Positions 1 through 33,207 of a stretch of 33,207 bases of DNA are shown in pieces. Under the pieces are notes generated by a model, which searched no databases, was not told the DNA's origin, and was given only the letters and a program-made list of their open reading frames with translations. This DNA is from a virus. The stretch is from positions 1 to 33,207 of IMG/VR virus record IMGVR_UViG_3300034064_000098. One strand, given 5' to 3'. Within the stretch, counting starts at the first letter, position 1. Every line of letters begins with the position of its first letter. The translations under genes were made by a program, and so were the position numbers.

Positions 1-127
1 AGATTAAACTTTATTGCCCGAAGACGAGTAGGTACTGCAATTACCTGCAAATCCGAGGGCTTTTTTATTATGAAAAACAAATCTTATTATTTTAGCCACG
101 ACTATAACGCTGCTAATGATACAAAGG
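1..127. repeat. Terminal direct repeat, left copy
   Basis: Bases 1-127 are identical to 33081-33207. The length, 127, is a common assembler k-mer size, so this most likely shows that the contig closes into a circle of 33,080 bp and is not a packaged terminal repeat. The repeat holds a hairpin with a T run and the first 58 bases of the first gene. The gene before the repeat (ends 33061) and the gene in it are then neighbours on the circle. Confidence 0.95.
16..66 (+). terminator. Hairpin with T run just before the first gene
   Basis: GCCC (16-19) can pair with GGGC (57-60), and inside it AGGTA (30-34) can pair with TACCT (42-46). Six T follow at 61-66. CTGCAA occurs twice (35-40 and 45-50). 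This has the form of an intrinsic terminator ending the operon that precedes it on the circle. However, it stops only three bases before the ATG at 70, so it could instead be an attenuator or a structure that limits translation of the first gene. The outer stem is short (4 bp), so termination strength is uncertain. Confidence 0.5.
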
Positions 128-756
128 TGCTTTTTTTAAGACATCAATTAGGGATGGAGGGTTATGGTATCTATTGGTTTTTAATTGAAAAATTAGCCGA
201 TGCAGGAGGTAAAATGCCTTTGGAATTAATACCAATATTGGCAATGCAAATGCAATCAAGTGATACAAAAGTAAAAGGAGTGATTACGCAGTTTGATTTA
301 TTTAGTATTGCAGAAGGGGAGTTTTGGTCAGAAAGGCTTAATGACCATTTAGGATTGAGAGCAAAATTAAGTGAAAGTGGCAAAAATGGAGCAATAAGCA
401 GATGGGGAAATGGGGAGGCTAATAGGGTGGCTATTGGGGAGGGCAATGCAAAGAAAAGAAAAGAAAAGGAAATAAAAGAAAATGAAAGTAAAGTAAGTAG
501 TATAGATATATTTAAAAACAAAATTTTAGAGCATAAAGATTTATTAGCAGATTCATACAATGATTTTTTAGAATACTGGTGCGAACCAAATAAAGATGGT
601 AAATTGCGTTACGAACTAGAAAAGTTCTTTGATGCCAAACGCAGAATAAACACTTGGATAAAAAACAAAAATACTTATGGAAATTCAAAAACATTTAGCC
701 CAACCGCTGCAAGTGAGCAACGAATGGCAACCCTTAAAGACTGGGTCAATAGCTGA
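70..756 (+). CDS. Lin1244/DUF4373-type phage replication protein
   Basis: A 228-residue protein whose N-terminal part (about residues 6-95) matches the Lin1244/Lin1753 N-terminal domain (DUF4373): YYFSHDYN at the start and GMEGYGIYWFLIE at about 28-40. This domain is found in phage and plasmid replication initiation or replisome-organiser proteins, often of DnaD-like design, so a role in starting phage DNA replication is likely. A Lys/Glu-rich linker (about 127-142) separates it from a C-terminal part with the pattern FDAKRRINTWIKNK, seen in similar replication proteins. The start follows directly on a hairpin with a T run. The gene overlaps the next by 80 bases. Function is inferred from the family; origin binding is not shown. 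Confidence 0.8.
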   Translation: MKNKSYYFSHDYNAANDTKVLFLRHQLGMEGYGIYWFLIEKLADAGGKMPLELIPILAMQMQSSDTKVKGVITQFDLFSIAEGEFWSERLNDHLGLRAKLSESGKNGAISRWGNGEANRVAIGEGNAKKRKEKEIKENESKVSSIDIFKNKILEHKDLLADSYNDFLEYWCEPNKDGKLRYELEKFFDAKRRINTWIKNKNTYGNSKTFSPTAASEQRMATLKDWVNS

Positions 757-2362: not shown

Positions 2363-2628
2363 GTTACATAGGAGTAAGATTAAATAGAGTTAATAATATT
2401 CCTTATGGCAAAAGAAAAGGAACGATTCAAAAAGGATGGGCAGACCTGCAAGGTTACAACGCAGAAGGTAAATATGTTATGGTAGAAATAAAAAAACTAG
2501 GTGATAAATTAAGCAAAGAACAAATTGAAAGATTTACTGATTGTTGGAAATGCGGAAGTTTAGTCTATATTTGTACTGAAGTAGATAACAAAGCTGCTTT
2601 AGTTGAATGGACAAAAATAAAATTATAG
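2314..2628 (+). CDS. VRR-NUC-like PD-(D/E)xK nuclease
   Basis: A 104-residue protein with the layout of the small phage VRR-NUC family, a branch of the PD-(D/E)xK nucleases. KGWADLQGY holds the likely metal-binding Asp44, VMVEIKK holds Glu58 and Lys60, and DKLSKEQIERF has the conserved Gln70. Such enzymes cut branched or flap DNA, and in phages they probably help recombination and replication. The size is normal for the single-domain form. It lies between a methyltransferase and a sigma-like gene, overlapping the latter by 22 bases. It could in principle be the nuclease of a restriction system with the methyltransferase, but it has no obvious DNA-recognition domain. Confidence 0.75.
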   Translation: MDISANELTRWAKENLGYIGVRLNRVNNIPYGKRKGTIQKGWADLQGYNAEGKYVMVEIKKLGDKLSKEQIERFTDCWKCGSLVYICTEVDNKAALVEWTKIKL

Positions 2629-3089
2629 AAGAATATTGGCTTAATGAAGAAGTAAACCAAGCATTTGCAAAGATGCAACCAGAGGAGCTACAATATGATT
2701 TAAAGGTTGAGGTCTTTATGGTTCTTTTAGAAATGGAAAAAGAAAAGCTGTTTGGTTTATACGAAAGGAATGAAATTAGATTTTACATAGTACGCACAAT
2801 GCTGAATATGATTAAGTCTGATAGGAGTCAGTTTTGGAAAAAATACAGGAACTATACAGAATACGAAGATAATGATAATGCAGATGTAGAACAAAATAGC
2901 GTTATTGATATAATGGAAAAAGGAATAGAAAATCTTCATTGGTATCAAAAACAAATTTTAAACTTATATACTTTTGAATTTAATAAGAACGCAAAGGAGT
3001 TAAGTAGAAAAACAGGAATACCCTATATGAGTATTATCAGGACATTAAAACAAACTAAAAACGAACTAAAAAAACATATTAGGAAATGA
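2607..3089 (+). CDS. Small sigma-70-like protein
   Basis: A 160-residue protein resembling a minimal sigma-70 family factor. Residues about 30-80 fit a region-2-like helical bundle (EVFMVLLEMEKEK, then RFYIVRTMLNMIKSDRSQFWKKYR). Residues about 110-158 form a region-4-like helix-turn-helix: WYQKQILNLYTF, then NAKELSRKTGIPYMSIIRTL. An acidic linker joins them. It may direct host RNA polymerase to phage promoters. The alternative is a plain HTH regulator, since region 2 is weakly marked. It overlaps the genes on both sides (ATGA at its end), so it is made with the replication genes and would be present before the structural genes are read. Confidence 0.6.
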   Translation: MDKNKIIEEYWLNEEVNQAFAKMQPEELQYDLKVEVFMVLLEMEKEKLFGLYERNEIRFYIVRTMLNMIKSDRSQFWKKYRNYTEYEDNDNADVEQNSVIDIMEKGIENLHWYQKQILNLYTFEFNKNAKELSRKTGIPYMSIIRTLKQTKNELKKHIRK

Positions 3090-3325: not shown

Positions 3326-3600
3326 AACACAGAGAGTTTTTAAAAGAACATTATTATAATTACGAAACTGCAAAAAGTGGTTATGTAAGAAACTTAGATT
3401 TACCTATTCTTAGAATGTATGAACATATTTATAAAACATATCTTAACGCAAGTTTTATTCTTACGATATGGTGTGCAGCTTGTAGAATGGAAATGTTAAT
3501 GAGATTGTATGCGTACTATGAAACCTTACCAATAGAAAAGATTATAGAACCTACTCAAGTTAACATTATAAAAAAAACTAAAAAGAAAACAAATGGCTAA
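3316..3600 (+). CDS. Hypothetical protein
   Basis: A 94-residue protein of unknown family. The first 60 residues are predicted helical with many aromatics (FLKEHYYNYETAKSGYVRN), and the last 15 are very basic (IIKKTKKKTNG). WCAACRMEMLMRL at about 53-65 carries two Cys. No transmembrane signal is clear. It is coupled by overlap to both neighbours, the membrane protein before it and the acyltransferase after it, which suggests co-expression with the surface-modification cassette. Confidence 0.55.
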   Translation: MELEHREFLKEHYYNYETAKSGYVRNLDLPILRMYEHIYKTYLNASFILTIWCAACRMEMLMRLYAYYETLPIEKIIEPTQVNIIKKTKKKTNG

Positions 3601-6787: not shown

Positions 6788-8002
6788 ATGACAGAAAAGA
6801 ACGCAATTACAGAAGTCAAGGTCGTAAAGATTAATGACATTAAATCTAATCCTAATAACCCTAGAATTATTAAGGATGACAAGTTTAAGAAATTAGTAGA
6901 AAGTATTAAGTCATTCCCAGAGATGGCTAATGTTAGACCTATTGTAGTTAATAAAGATATGATTGTCTTAGGTGGCAATATGCGACTAAAGGCAATGAAG
7001 GAAGCAGGTTGGAAAGAAGCACCTATTCAAATAGTAGATTGGGATGAACAAAAGCAAAAGGAATTTATAGTAAAAGATAATGTAGGATTTGGAGAATGGG
7101 ATTGGGATGACCTAGCAAATAATTGGGATGCAGAAGAATTAACTGATTGGGGTTTAGATATACCAAACTTTGATGTAAACAATTTAGAAGCCGAAGAAGA
7201 TGAGTTTGCAATACCAGACGGAGGTATTGAAACGGATATAGTTTTAGGGGATTTATTTGAGATAGGGGAACACAGATTACTTTGTGGCGATAGTACGGAT
7301 AGCGACCAAGTGGCAAAGCTAATGAACGGACAAAAGGCTGATATGGTATTTACAGATCCGCCTTATGGAATGGCTTATGAAAGTAATGCTTGGGATAGTA
7401 AAAAAAGTGAAGTAAAACAAAAGCGAACTGATACACAAATATTAAACGATGAGAATACAAATGTTGGTCAAGACGCATTAAATTTAATACCATTATTTCT
7501 TGAAAACAATAGGCATTTTTATATATGGTGCAGATGGGATTGCTTCAATGATTTTAAAGAAGTATGTCAAAATATTGGCAAGATTAAAAGCGTAGTAGTT
7601 TGGGATAAAGGTGGTCCAGGATTAGGAGATTTAAAAGGTTCTTATGGGGATAGTGAATGGGCTATATTTGGAATGATTGGAAGAAGAGAATTAAAAGAAA
7701 GGCAAAATGGAGTTTGGCAAGTAAATAGAATGAAAGGTTTGCAAATGCAACATCCAACACAAAAACCATTAGAAATATGCGAAAGAGGAATAAATAATTC
7801 TACAAATCAAAATGAATTAATATTAGATTTATTTCTTGGTTCTGGTTCAACAATGGCTGCTTCGCATCAACTTAAACGCAAATGCTATGGTATGGAACTT
7901 GACTCAAAATACTGCCAAGTGATTGTAGATAGGATGCAAAAACTTGACCCAACTTTAGAAGTAAAAAGAAACGGACAACCGTATATTAAAACAGAACAAT
8001 AA
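6788..8002 (+). CDS. ParB-domain DNA methyltransferase (N6-A or N4-C type)
   Basis: A 404-residue fusion. Residues about 8-110 are a ParB/Srx-like domain (NPNNPRI at 21-27; PIVVNKDMIVLGGNMRLKAM at 51-70). Residues about 150-385 are an amino-methyltransferase with FTDPPYG (188-194) as the catalytic motif, HPTQKP (322-327) and LDLFLGSGST (346-355) as the S-adenosylmethionine-binding motif. Catalytic motif before SAM motif is the beta-class order. It methylates adenine N6 or cytosine N4 in an unknown site. This fusion is common in phages next to terminase genes, as here. With no nuclease partner it is probably anti-restriction, or it marks DNA for packaging or replication timing. It starts a transcription unit just after a TATCTTTG box. 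Confidence 0.9.
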   Translation: MTEKNAITEVKVVKINDIKSNPNNPRIIKDDKFKKLVESIKSFPEMANVRPIVVNKDMIVLGGNMRLKAMKEAGWKEAPIQIVDWDEQKQKEFIVKDNVGFGEWDWDDLANNWDAEELTDWGLDIPNFDVNNLEAEEDEFAIPDGGIETDIVLGDLFEIGEHRLLCGDSTDSDQVAKLMNGQKADMVFTDPPYGMAYESNAWDSKKSEVKQKRTDTQILNDENTNVGQDALNLIPLFLENNRHFYIWCRWDCFNDFKEVCQNIGKIKSVVVWDKGGPGLGDLKGSYGDSEWAIFGMIGRRELKERQNGVWQVNRMKGLQMQHPTQKPLEICERGINNSTNQNELILDLFLGSGSTMAASHQLKRKCYGMELDSKYCQVIVDRMQKLDPTLEVKRNGQPYIKTEQ

Positions 8003-15230: not shown

Positions 15231-17146
15231 TGGCAACAGAAAATTTGAATTTAAACGTCAATGTAAACACCAATGGTGTTGACAATTCTATAGGTTCACT
15301 TAAAAAGCAACTTCGTGAAGCAAATGCAGATGTAGTAAGATTATCAGATAAGTTTGGCGCAACGTCAATACAAGCAGCTAATGCAGCAAAAAAAGCAGCA
15401 GAGCTTAAAGATAGGATAGGAGATGCTAAAGCATTAACAGATTCCTTTAATCCAGATGCAAAGTTTAAAGCACTTACTTCTTCATTATCAGGAGTAGCAG
15501 GTGGATTTGGTGCAGTACAGGGTGCTATGGCTTTATTTGGTGCAGAAAGTGATGATGTTCAAAAAACATTATTAAAAGTTCAATCTGCAATGGCTATATC
15601 GCAAGGTTTACAATCACTTGGTGAAAGTATAGATAGTTTTAAAAACTTAGGTGCAGTAATAAAAAGTACAACAATATTTCAAGAGGCATATAATTTTGTA
15701 ATAGGAAAAAAAGTTGTAGTTACTCAAGCAGATATTGCTGTAACACAAGCGCAAACTGCATCAGTAGTTGAGCAAGGAATTGCAATCGTTGGAACTACTG
15801 CTATTGTTCAAGGAGCAACTGGAGCAATAGGAAATAAAGTTGTAGTTGCTGGAACAGATATTATTGCAATAGAAGGTCAAACAGCTGCAACAGTTCAACA
15901 CGGAGTTGCAGTAGTAGCAACAACAACTGCTGTAACAGGTGCAACTACAGCAATGAAATTGTTTAGAATAGCTTTAATTGCAACAGGTATTGGATTATTG
16001 ATTGTAGCAATAGGATTTGCTGTTGAGGCATTTTCTAAATATATAGGAGCAGCAGAAAAGGCTGCTGAAGCACAAAAAAAATTAAATAAACAAGTTGAGG
16101 ATGGCGCAAAAGTTCAATTAGAAGCTGAACTTGCATTTTTAGATAGAGAACAAAAATTAGCGGTAGCTAGAGCAAAAGCAAAAGGTAATAGCGAAGCGGA
16201 GATATATAAAATAGAACAAACATATAGGCAATTAAAAATAGATTCTCAACAAAGATATCATAATGAAATTGCTAGCATTGATGCAAAAGCTGCTACTGCT
16301 ACTCAAAATACAATAAAAAATATTGTTAACGAAGCAGAAATAGCAAGATTAGCAGAACAAGAAAGATTAAGAAAGATAGCCGAACAAAAAGAAAAAGATG
16401 ATAAAAAGAAAGCTGATGAATTAATTGCATTTAATCTAAGAGCAAAGTTACAAGTACAAGGGGATGATTTAGCATTATTAGAAGATGGTAAGAAATTACA
16501 AGCGGAGGCAGATAAAGCTGATGCTGAAGCAGCAAAAGCTGCAGAAGAAGATAGAATAAAAGGTTTGCAATATAGAACCGCACAAGTTCTACAAATTAAT
16601 AAGACTGCACAAGATGAAGATAAGAAAAATAAAGATGCGCTTTTAAATGCAGAATTACAATTTCAAAATGCAAAATTTGATATTGCAAATCAAGGTTTAA
16701 ACTTAATACAACAATTAGCGGGTCAAGGTACTGCGGTAGCTAAAGCTGCAGCGTTATCACAAATTATTATTGATACAGGTAGAGGTTTTGCAAGTGGTTT
16801 AACTATTGCACAAGAAGGTGCAAAGGCAACTGGTCCGGCTGCTCCATTTGCATTCCCAATATTTTATGCAACACAAATCGCTGCCGTATTAGGTGCGGTA
16901 GGAAAAGCTAAAAGTATTTTAAGTCAAGTGCCAGGTGGTGGTGGAATGGGTTCAATTAGTGCGCCATCAATGATTAATCAAGCACCAATAACTCCACAAC
17001 AACCACAAGCTGCAACAACAAACCTAAGTCAACAATCTATTAATGATATAGGCAATCAAGCAGTAAGAGCTTATGTGATTGAAAGTGATGTTACAAGCAA
17101 CCAACAAAGAATAACCGCAATAAGACAAAGAGCAAGATTTAGTTAA
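15230..17146 (+). CDS. Tape measure protein
   Basis: A 638-residue protein with the usual tape-measure make-up: Asn/Ala-rich helical start (LNLNVNVNTNGVDN, then coiled segments to about 70), a hydrophobic membrane-like segment (LFRIALIATGIGLLIVAIGF, about 244-263), a long charged coiled coil (about 272-460) and an Ala/Gln-rich end. Tape measure length sets tail length; by the usual 0.15 nm per residue this predicts a tail near 95 nm. Residues 158-199 and 200-241 are a tandem duplication of 42 residues. In this genome it comes after the tail-tip genes and before the prohead protease, which is not the common order. Confidence 0.85.
   Translation: MATENLNLNVNVNTNGVDNSIGSLKKQLREANADVVRLSDKFGATSIQAANAAKKAAELKDRIGDAKALTDSFNPDAKFKALTSSLSGVAGGFGAVQGAMALFGAESDDVQKTLLKVQSAMAISQGLQSLGESIDSFKNLGAVIKSTTIFQEAYNFVIGKKVVVTQADIAVTQAQTASVVEQGIAIVGTTAIVQGATGAIGNKVVVAGTDIIAIEGQTAATVQHGVAVVATTTAVTGATTAMKLFRIALIATGIGLLIVAIGFAVEAFSKYIGAAEKAAEAQKKLNKQVEDGAKVQLEAELAFLDREQKLAVARAKAKGNSEAEIYKIEQTYRQLKIDSQQRYHNEIASIDAKAATATQNTIKNIVNEAEIARLAEQERLRKIAEQKEKDDKKKADELIAFNLRAKLQVQGDDLALLEDGKKLQAEADKADAEAAKAAEEDRIKGLQYRTAQVLQINKTAQDEDKKNKDALLNAELQFQNAKFDIANQGLNLIQQLAGQGTAVAKAAALSQIIIDTGRGFASGLTIAQEGAKATGPAAPFAFPIFYATQIAAVLGAVGKAKSILSQVPGGGGMGSISAPSMINQAPITPQQPQAATTNLSQQSINDIGNQAVRAYVIESDVTSNQQRITAIRQRARFS
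15701..15952 (+). repeat. 126-bp tandem duplication inside tape measure gene
   Basis: Two adjacent 126-bp units (15701-15826, 15827-15952) encode related 42-residue segments: both begin IG(K/N)KVVV, then D-I-A-I-or-V, QTA-V, (E/Q)-(Q/H)-G-(I/V)-A-(I/V)-V, T-A-V and GATGA/GATTA. The DNA copies have diverged, so the duplication is old, and its unit length is a multiple of three. Confidence 0.8.
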
Positions 17147-32635: not shown

Positions 32636-33061
32636 ATGCAAACAATAGAAGCAAACATTCTAGATTATTATTTAGCACAAAAGAGTAATTTAAAAAAATT
32701 AAAAACTACTTTGGTAGCTTATAATATTTTAGAAAAAGATGAGGTTATTAGAAATAATAACAGGGTTACAATGAAAAAATTAGTTGGCTTAGTAGAGGAT
32801 ATTTTTGATACAGAAGTGCTTGTTAAAAACAGATTACAGAATACTGTGTTTGCTCGTAAGGCTGCGGCTTATATATTAAGGAAGCATACTAATTTATCTT
32901 TGAGTGAGATAGCTCCTTACATAGGTGTAAAAGACCACACTACTGTACTTTACAATGTTTCTACTGCTAAGGATCTAATACATACTGAAGGATGGTATAA
33001 AAATAAAATTGATGAAATTGAGGATGAAATCAAAAAATTCAATACCTTTGTTCAGAATTAA
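32636..33061 (+). CDS. DnaA domain IV-like protein
   Basis: A 141-residue protein whose residues about 45-118 match the C-terminal DNA-binding domain (domain IV) of bacterial DnaA: KLVGLVEDIFDTE, ARKAAAYILRKHTNLSLSEI and GVKDHTTVLYNVST, which contains the DnaA signature (DHTTV) that reads the DnaA box. The AAA+ ATPase domain and other parts of DnaA are missing; the first 44 residues are helical and specific. It may bind DnaA boxes in the phage origin or block host initiation. A Lin1244-type replication gene follows it on the circle, across a hairpin with a T run. Confidence 0.8.
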   Translation: MQTIEANILDYYLAQKSNLKKLKTTLVAYNILEKDEVIRNNNRVTMKKLVGLVEDIFDTEVLVKNRLQNTVFARKAAAYILRKHTNLSLSEIAPYIGVKDHTTVLYNVSTAKDLIHTEGWYKNKIDEIEDEIKKFNTFVQN

Positions 33062-33080
33062 GATTATTGCAGAATCTTAA

Positions 33081-33207
33081 AGATTAAACTTTATTGCCCG
33101 AAGACGAGTAGGTACTGCAATTACCTGCAAATCCGAGGGCTTTTTTATTATGAAAAACAAATCTTATTATTTTAGCCACGACTATAACGCTGCTAATGAT
33201 ACAAAGG
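33081..33207. repeat. Terminal direct repeat, right copy
   Basis: Identical to bases 1-127. It includes the second copy of the hairpin with T run (33096-33146) and the first 58 bases of the first gene (33150-33207). Confidence 0.95.
33150..33207 (+). CDS. Start of Lin1244-type replication gene (partial copy)
   Basis: The first 19 codons of the gene at 70-756 appear again because of the terminal repeat; the reading is cut by the window end. It is not a second gene. Confidence 0.9.
   Translation, partial: MKNKSYYFSHDYNAANDTK

Follow-up and report, generated by a model that had tools for sequence, protein, structure and literature searches.

A covarying kissing-loop RNA element between a stand-alone DnaA domain IV gene and a replication initiator gene in a family of phages

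Comparison of 35 viral loci demonstrates a covarying, predicted kissing-loop structure with a terminator-like end in the short space between two genes, of which the upstream one encodes a protein with domain IV of DnaA and the downstream one a replication initiator. The RNA element, which consists of two hairpins with complementary 7-nt loops placed between the stop codon of the first gene and the start codon of the second, is compact and strongly covarying and stands ahead of a phage initiator; it is the part of the locus that deserves work. The protein itself is an ordinary added member of a widespread and already annotated kind, since many phages are known to carry stand-alone DnaA domain IV proteins.

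The domain IV protein and its relatives

The window, that is, the whole stretch of viral DNA analysed here (33,207 bases), ends with the same 127 bases with which it begins. This terminal overlap closes it into a circle of 33,080 bases, and thus the gene next to that of the domain IV protein on the circle is the one that starts at position 70 (Table 1). A Lin1244-type gene had been proposed at this place from the letters alone, and the Pfam match agrees. The host likely belongs to the class Flavobacteriia, because the best matches of the portal protein are those of Nonlabens phages (25% identity). Elsewhere in the window, 2607-3089 encodes a sigma-70/ECF-like protein, a possible phage sigma factor (TIGR02937, E 2.2e-5, under the cut-off of that model), a DNA methyltransferase-like gene matching TIGR00675 lies at 1408-2187, and a methyltransferase-like gene at 6788-8002 has the appearance, by reading only, of a ParB-methyltransferase fusion. 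Two tandem 126-nt copies, 71% alike, occupy 15700-15951 inside a gene for 638 amino acids, which looks, also by reading only, like a tape-measure protein gene.

Table 1. Coordinates of the features in the window, with the evidence for each
Feature	Position	Strand	Evidence
Lin1244-type replication initiator gene	70-756	+	Pfam Lin1244_N, E 6.4e-10; PHROG 2562 'replication initiation protein'
Candidate origin: TGGGGAGGCTAAT/TGGGGAGGGCAAT repeats (411-447) and A-rich repeat tract (450-499)	411-499	+	repeat scans
Gene for DnaA domain-IV-only protein, 141 aa	32636-33061	+	Pfam Bac_DnaA_C; hhalign to 28 DnaA proteins; structure, Z 12.6 to 3pvp
N-terminal extension, residues 1-33, mostly one predicted helix	32636-32734	+	helix 2-28 in model
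Recognition-helix motif DHTTVLYN, residues 100-107	32933-32956	+	1j1v alignment; E. coli DnaA has DHTTVLHA
Promoter-like TACCTTTG	33043-33050	+	weak; TAnnTTTG just before the RNA
RNA hairpin 1: 8-bp stem, 7-nt loop AUUGCAG (33066-33072)	33058-33080	+	fold; scan
RNA hairpin 2: closing stem GCCC/GGGC, two purine-rich internal loops	33096-33140 (also 16-60)	+	fold; covariation
U-tract directly after hairpin 2	33141-33146	+	sequence

How much of DnaA is retained in this protein? It matches Pfam Bac_DnaA_C with E 1.3e-13 and 51.2 bits (cut-off 31.5), and the NCBIfam model of full-length DnaA is matched in its C-terminal part only, with 56.8 bits (cut-off 343.9). By profile-profile comparison with hhalign, the similarity to 28 DnaA proteins extends over residues 34-133 (E 1.2e-15), and a profile built from ten members of the family recognizes solved DnaA structures. 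In the AlphaFold2 model (mean pLDDT 77.1, pTM 0.60), residues 44-137 superpose on the DnaA DNA-binding domains 3pvp (Z 12.6, 2.2 Å, 88 residues) and 1j1v (Z 11.8, 2.4 Å, 86 residues). Residues from about 44 to 137 are a complete DnaA domain IV. The sequence-only reading, in which the protein consists of domain IV with a DnaA-box motif, is therefore borne out by the profile, by hhalign and by the superposition, except that the mostly helical residues 1-33 are present in addition. The same reading held that the ATPase domain is missing, and rightly so: with 141 residues starting shortly before domain IV, and with only the C-terminal part of the full-length model matched, the protein has no AAA+ domain III. 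As to whether its N-terminus is a remnant of DnaA domain IIIb, profile-profile comparison gives no significant match to DnaA for residues 1-58, and the hmmsearch alignment to Aquifex DnaA begins at residue 5.

In E. coli DnaA, the DnaA box is recognized by R399 and D433-T436. Alignment to 1j1v places R66 of the phage protein on R399 and its DHTTV on D433-V437, so that the recognition positions are kept as R66 and D100-T103, the latter within KDHTTVLY (residues 99-106), and none of these residues is missing from that alignment. Changed positions are E. coli R401, Q408, H439 and A440, which are Q, K, Y and N, respectively, in the phage protein. Scans of viral contigs found relatives in 34 other contigs, 39-87% identical to the window protein. 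DHTTV is present in 34 of the 35 members, including that of the window, with DHSTV in the remaining one (L098), and where E. coli has H439, all 35 carry Tyr. The most frequent helix in DnaA of the class Flavobacteriia is DHSTVIHA (13 of 26 loci). The domain IV gene directly precedes the initiator gene, with the RNA between them, in 34 of the 35 loci; in the other (L006), the order is domain IV gene, RNA, an inserted methyltransferase gene, and then the initiator gene.

Fold comparison of the model with predicted viral proteins gave seven matches with E no higher than 0.001. The fold list contains many proteins of 100-190 aa named DnaA C-terminal, from uncultured Caudovirales and from Cellulophaga, Flavobacterium and Tenacibaculum phages. 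Cellulophaga phage phi19:3, Flavobacterium phage tooticki6-1 and Tenacibaculum phage Gundel_1 likewise have domain IV alone in about 100-190 aa, and so do Pelagibacter Skadi phages and Microcystis phage Mae-JY35, which, together with a Rhizobium phage, are among the deposited examples of the kind. These proteins were recognized by fold or by the annotation of depositors; in the fold list they are mostly 15-30% identical to the window protein, and the best one is A0A6J5KMB1 (41%). Neighbourhoods were read for four named unrelated phages, and in two of them (ctOK67 and Rhizobium phage RHph_N28_2) the domain IV gene adjoins an initiator-like gene. Five GenBank 'Bacteriophage sp.' fecal clones (L062-L065 and L067) carry a full DnaA beside chromosomal genes; these phage-labelled records with chromosomal dnaA regions appear to be mislabelled host DNA, and were set aside. 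No paper testing a stand-alone phage DnaA domain IV protein was recognized in the open-licence literature.

DnaA boxes, a candidate origin and the possible role of the protein

To which DNA, then, might a DnaA domain IV without the rest of DnaA bind? One of the proposals made from the letters was that it recruits host replication proteins to DnaA boxes of the phage. Exact TTATNCACA is not found in the window; with up to one mismatch, it occurs at 39 sites against 57.7 expected, and none of these lies in the 2.2-kb stretch after the domain IV gene. Over 16 sources together, there are 10 exact copies against 16 expected, and 7 of these sources share one TTATTCACA roughly 1.5 kb downstream. As for the boxes of the host class, E. 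coli-type TTATCCACA pairs were found in none of 20 Flavobacteriia-class genomes, and the box was therefore sought upstream of dnaA instead (loci L034-L061). There, 27 regions together contain 11 copies of TTATTAACA, where 0.38 would be expected (nine copies without a duplicate, L034 and L036 being the same gene). Any TTATNNACA site is present in 8 of the 27 regions, and at none of five dnaA genes with DHTTVIH helices. TTATTAACA-TTATYAACA pairs are found in 23 of 60 genomes, against a reversed-pattern control found in 9 of those 60. From these counts, the DnaA box of the class Flavobacteriia appears to be TTATYAACA (TTATTAACA/TTATCAACA) rather than TTATCCACA. The box pair, mostly 28-30 nt overall and present in one or two copies in each genome that has it, may mark oriC.

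When the phages are searched with this putative host-type box, TTATYAACA is found 12 times over 19 sources against 16.1 expected, with neither enrichment nor a cluster near the domain IV gene in the window and its relatives. Since neither TTATNCACA nor TTATYAACA clusters in the phage or in its relatives, recruitment to phage DnaA boxes is left unsupported. Moreover, DnaA recruits the helicase by its domains I and III, and these are absent from the phage protein. It should be added that the phage helix DHTTVLYN differs from that of the host class, for the most part DHSTVIHA, so that a search with host or E. coli boxes can miss sites. Avoidance of boxes as a sign of action on the host was also considered, and was dropped as too weak: the box ratio is 0.71-0.74 in the window and 0.67 in the relatives, which are mutually non-independent, compared with 0.80 in P12024S (a control without the motif), 0.92 in CRP5 and 1.18 in phage 1/32.

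The initiator gene is another place to look for the start of phage replication. Its N-terminal domain has been exchanged between relatives, while the C-terminal part is common to them. The N-termini comprise two Lin1244 subtypes and two further kinds whose matches fall short of the model cut-offs, one resembling HTH_36 (22.6 bits where 25 are required) and the other DUF1376 (24.6 bits where 30.1 are required). A match to the C-terminal part was also obtained in a Riemerella phage, in a gene overlapping the beginning of that for a replicative helicase. Direct repeats in the linker of the initiator differ by initiator type: a 22-nt unit occurs two and a half times in L007 and L008, L009 and L012 have ATAACAGAAGATAACA at 21-nt spacing, and an A-rich tract is found in the Lin1244 types. 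The repeats inside the gene are weak in the window, where they take the form of TGGGGAGG, and stronger in relatives. Nine of the ten initiator genes scored exceed the maximum of 30 codon shuffles, L033 being the exception; the window and L013 do so through the A-rich tract only, and L002 does so narrowly (17.5 against 16.0). These repeats suggest a putative origin inside the initiator gene in the manner of phage lambda, whose O gene contains the lambda origin. As in lambda O, direct repeats and an A-rich tract lie in the linker between the DNA-binding and C-terminal parts of an initiator gene; unlike lambda O, the proteins belong to other families, the N-termini are exchanged between phage relatives together with the repeats, and the origin is a predicted one. 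Because the domain IV protein is constant across initiator types, it probably does not target these repeats.

Phage replication would then more likely start at these iteron-like repeats, bound by the exchangeable initiator, and the domain IV protein would most likely bind DnaA-box-like DNA elsewhere, at host oriC or at DnaA-regulated promoters, where it would compete with host DnaA or act as a regulator. Occupation of host boxes, the other proposal of the sequence-only reading, is possible because the recognition residues are kept, and binding of host boxes or regulation seems likelier, by elimination, than recruitment to phage boxes. The best explanation that we can offer is that the domain IV module is used alone in the early replication block and works away from phage boxes, binding elsewhere, with the origin in the next gene and an RNA leader controlling the initiator; as a whole it is tentative, and we would put it a little short of an even chance. 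It is favoured by a recognition motif that remains constant while the next initiator and its repeats change with type. Against it, the initiator-like neighbours in ctOK67 and RHph_N28_2 are compatible with a function in phage replication no less than with interference with the host, and the recurrence of TTATTCACA, the weakness of the repeats in the window and the repeats of L033, which are not above shuffles, also count.

Might the protein instead be an accessory replication factor near the phage origin, which helps the initiator via its N-terminal helix or by bending DNA? Its place directly before the initiator in 34 of 35 loci (before the methyltransferase and the initiator in the other), the initiator-like neighbours in ctOK67 and RHph_N28_2, and a match of the protein to PHROG 30669 'replication initiation protein' would all suit such a factor. 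However, DnaA boxes do not cluster by either consensus, the protein is constant while initiators and repeats are swapped, and the domains by which DnaA loads the helicase are lacking, so that we consider this role rather unlikely. That the protein is a functionless relic of a captured host dnaA, of which only a part still matches the full DnaA model, is barely credible with a frame that is open, kept over 34 other contigs and invariant in its recognition residues. In any case, a fixed DnaA domain IV reader beside swapping initiators provides a clean setting in which to ask whether such proteins act on the host or at the phage origin.

Structure and conservation of the kissing-loop RNA

The kissing-loop element spans 33058-33146 of the window and is partly repeated at 1-66, and only its first bases fall within 32636-33061. 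The inner stem of hairpin 2 pairs 33108-33114 with 33122-33128, and its loop, CUGCAAU (33115-33121), is the perfect complement of the loop of hairpin 1. The linker between the hairpins has 13-14 nt, or 18 where hairpin 1 is longer. Between the end of the U-tract and the initiator start codon there are 3 nt in the window (start codon at 33150, equal to window position 70) and 3-5 nt across loci. The folding energy beats that of shuffles in eight loci (z from -1.9 to -5.7), and one such hairpin pair exists on the + strand of the window against 0.03 expected from shuffles. G-U pairs on the + strand indicate that this strand is the RNA. Just upstream stands TACCTTTG, which presumably resembles the -7 promoter element of Bacteroidota. 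TAnnTTTG is found in 12 of the 15 loci examined, the window included, and since it is missing in three, a separate leader transcript is suggested at most; a scan for sigma-70-type promoters gave no more matches than chance.

The 7-nt complement between the loops is perfect in all 35 loci, although the loops themselves exist in four versions: GUCGCAU/AUGCGAC, GUCGUAU/AUACGAC, AUUGCAG/CUGCAAU, and a swapped AUGCGAC/GUCGCAU, which is found in L100, L101 and L102 at about 3424-3523. In the RNA alignment of 15 rows (13 distinct), 94.3% of cells are paired against 79.9% in shuffled ones, although the closing stem is misaligned in two window-type rows and there counts against the structure. Two-sided changes are seen at 16 of 27 pairs, with a covariation score of 0.443 against 0.149, and none of 500 shuffles is as high on paired cells or on two-sided changes. 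A set of 24 rows (13 distinct in the helices) was counted by script, since hairpin 1 of two rows, the window and L007, is misplaced in the alignment. In this set, all 65 cells of hairpin 1 are paired, with two-sided changes at all five positions, as are all 78 cells of the inner stem, with changes at five of six; the kissing helix pairs in 91 of 91 cells with changes at five of seven positions, where parsing required the loop complement and all 24 rows passed. The closing stem of the window row was mis-assigned by the script and left out.

The hairpin-1 pattern is matched by 17 stretches, and the 15 with the whole element all have a domain IV gene directly upstream. L073 and L075, which share the hairpin-1 sequence and lack the rest of the element, were dropped as chance matches. 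Rfam 15 gave no match in the window at gathering score, and for the element in L005 or L008 it gave none even when hits up to E 1 were allowed. The RNA was found in none of 395 Flavobacteriia-class genomes under strict filters, with no positive control among them, and in six other phage stretches nothing came below E 1. With model R1, it was not found in the stretches of Mae-JY35 (L066), Skadi-10 (L079), RHph_N28_2 (L080) and ctOK67 (L081). No paper describing this kissing-loop element was recognized in the open-licence literature.

Possible control of the initiator by the RNA

Why should two kissing hairpins be kept in front of an initiator gene? As an mRNA leader with a terminator-like end, they would most likely set the amount of initiator that is made. 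Because the U-tract nearly touches the start codon, transcripts that reach the initiator must cross the terminator-like stem, and 3-5 nt before the ATG leave no room for a promoter after that stem. An attenuator, that is, a conditional terminator, would be the simplest reading, and we infer from position and covariation that the RNA is probably an attenuator-like leader controlling initiator expression. The methyltransferase gene inserted in L006 means that the element precedes whatever gene follows.

The RNA could also be a plain, robust terminator, or a structure protecting the 3' end of the early operon upstream, in which case the initiator would be expressed by read-through. Its location directly after the stop codon of the domain IV gene, its end in a U-tract and its persistence in L006, where the next gene is a methyltransferase gene, are all in keeping with this. 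Nevertheless, no promoter fits between the U-tract and the start codon, and a plain terminator has no need of a loop complement that is kept through two-sided changes and even through a swap of the loops; on balance we think it unlikely, though worth bearing in mind. A more ambitious view takes the leader of about 95 nt as a new class of phage regulatory RNA, which gates transcription past the terminator-like stem into the initiator gene and the origin inside it and so licenses replication, with the always-adjacent domain IV protein being part of the same switch, for instance by sensing occupancy of host DnaA boxes or by binding the region; this is a long shot, in our judgement. Still more doubtful is pairing of the loops between two RNA molecules to form dimers or multimers. 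A fully stacked loop helix of 7 bp would need the linker of 13-14 nt to span about 90 Å, which is near the limit (our estimate from standard A-form geometry with both hairpins fully formed and stacked), and the pRNA of phage phi29, with its intermolecular loops, serves as a phage precedent; however, the linker is kept at 13-14 nt, and at 18 with a longer hairpin 1, as would be expected of an intramolecular tether.

If the RNA does work by attenuation, it would give a phage a novel means of timing its replication; the swapped-loop version is a ready-made set of compensatory variants provided by nature. The closest known systems are leaders of plasmid rep genes: pT181, pIP501 and the RNAI/RNAII pair of ColE1 are controlled by attenuation or antisense RNA. 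The repB leader of pMV158 is reportedly under such control as well (PMC4485353). Like these leaders, the phage element places hairpins ahead of a replication initiator gene, and loop pairing also takes place in some of those plasmids. Unlike them, it carries both complementary loops in cis on one phage leader, with no antisense RNA identified.
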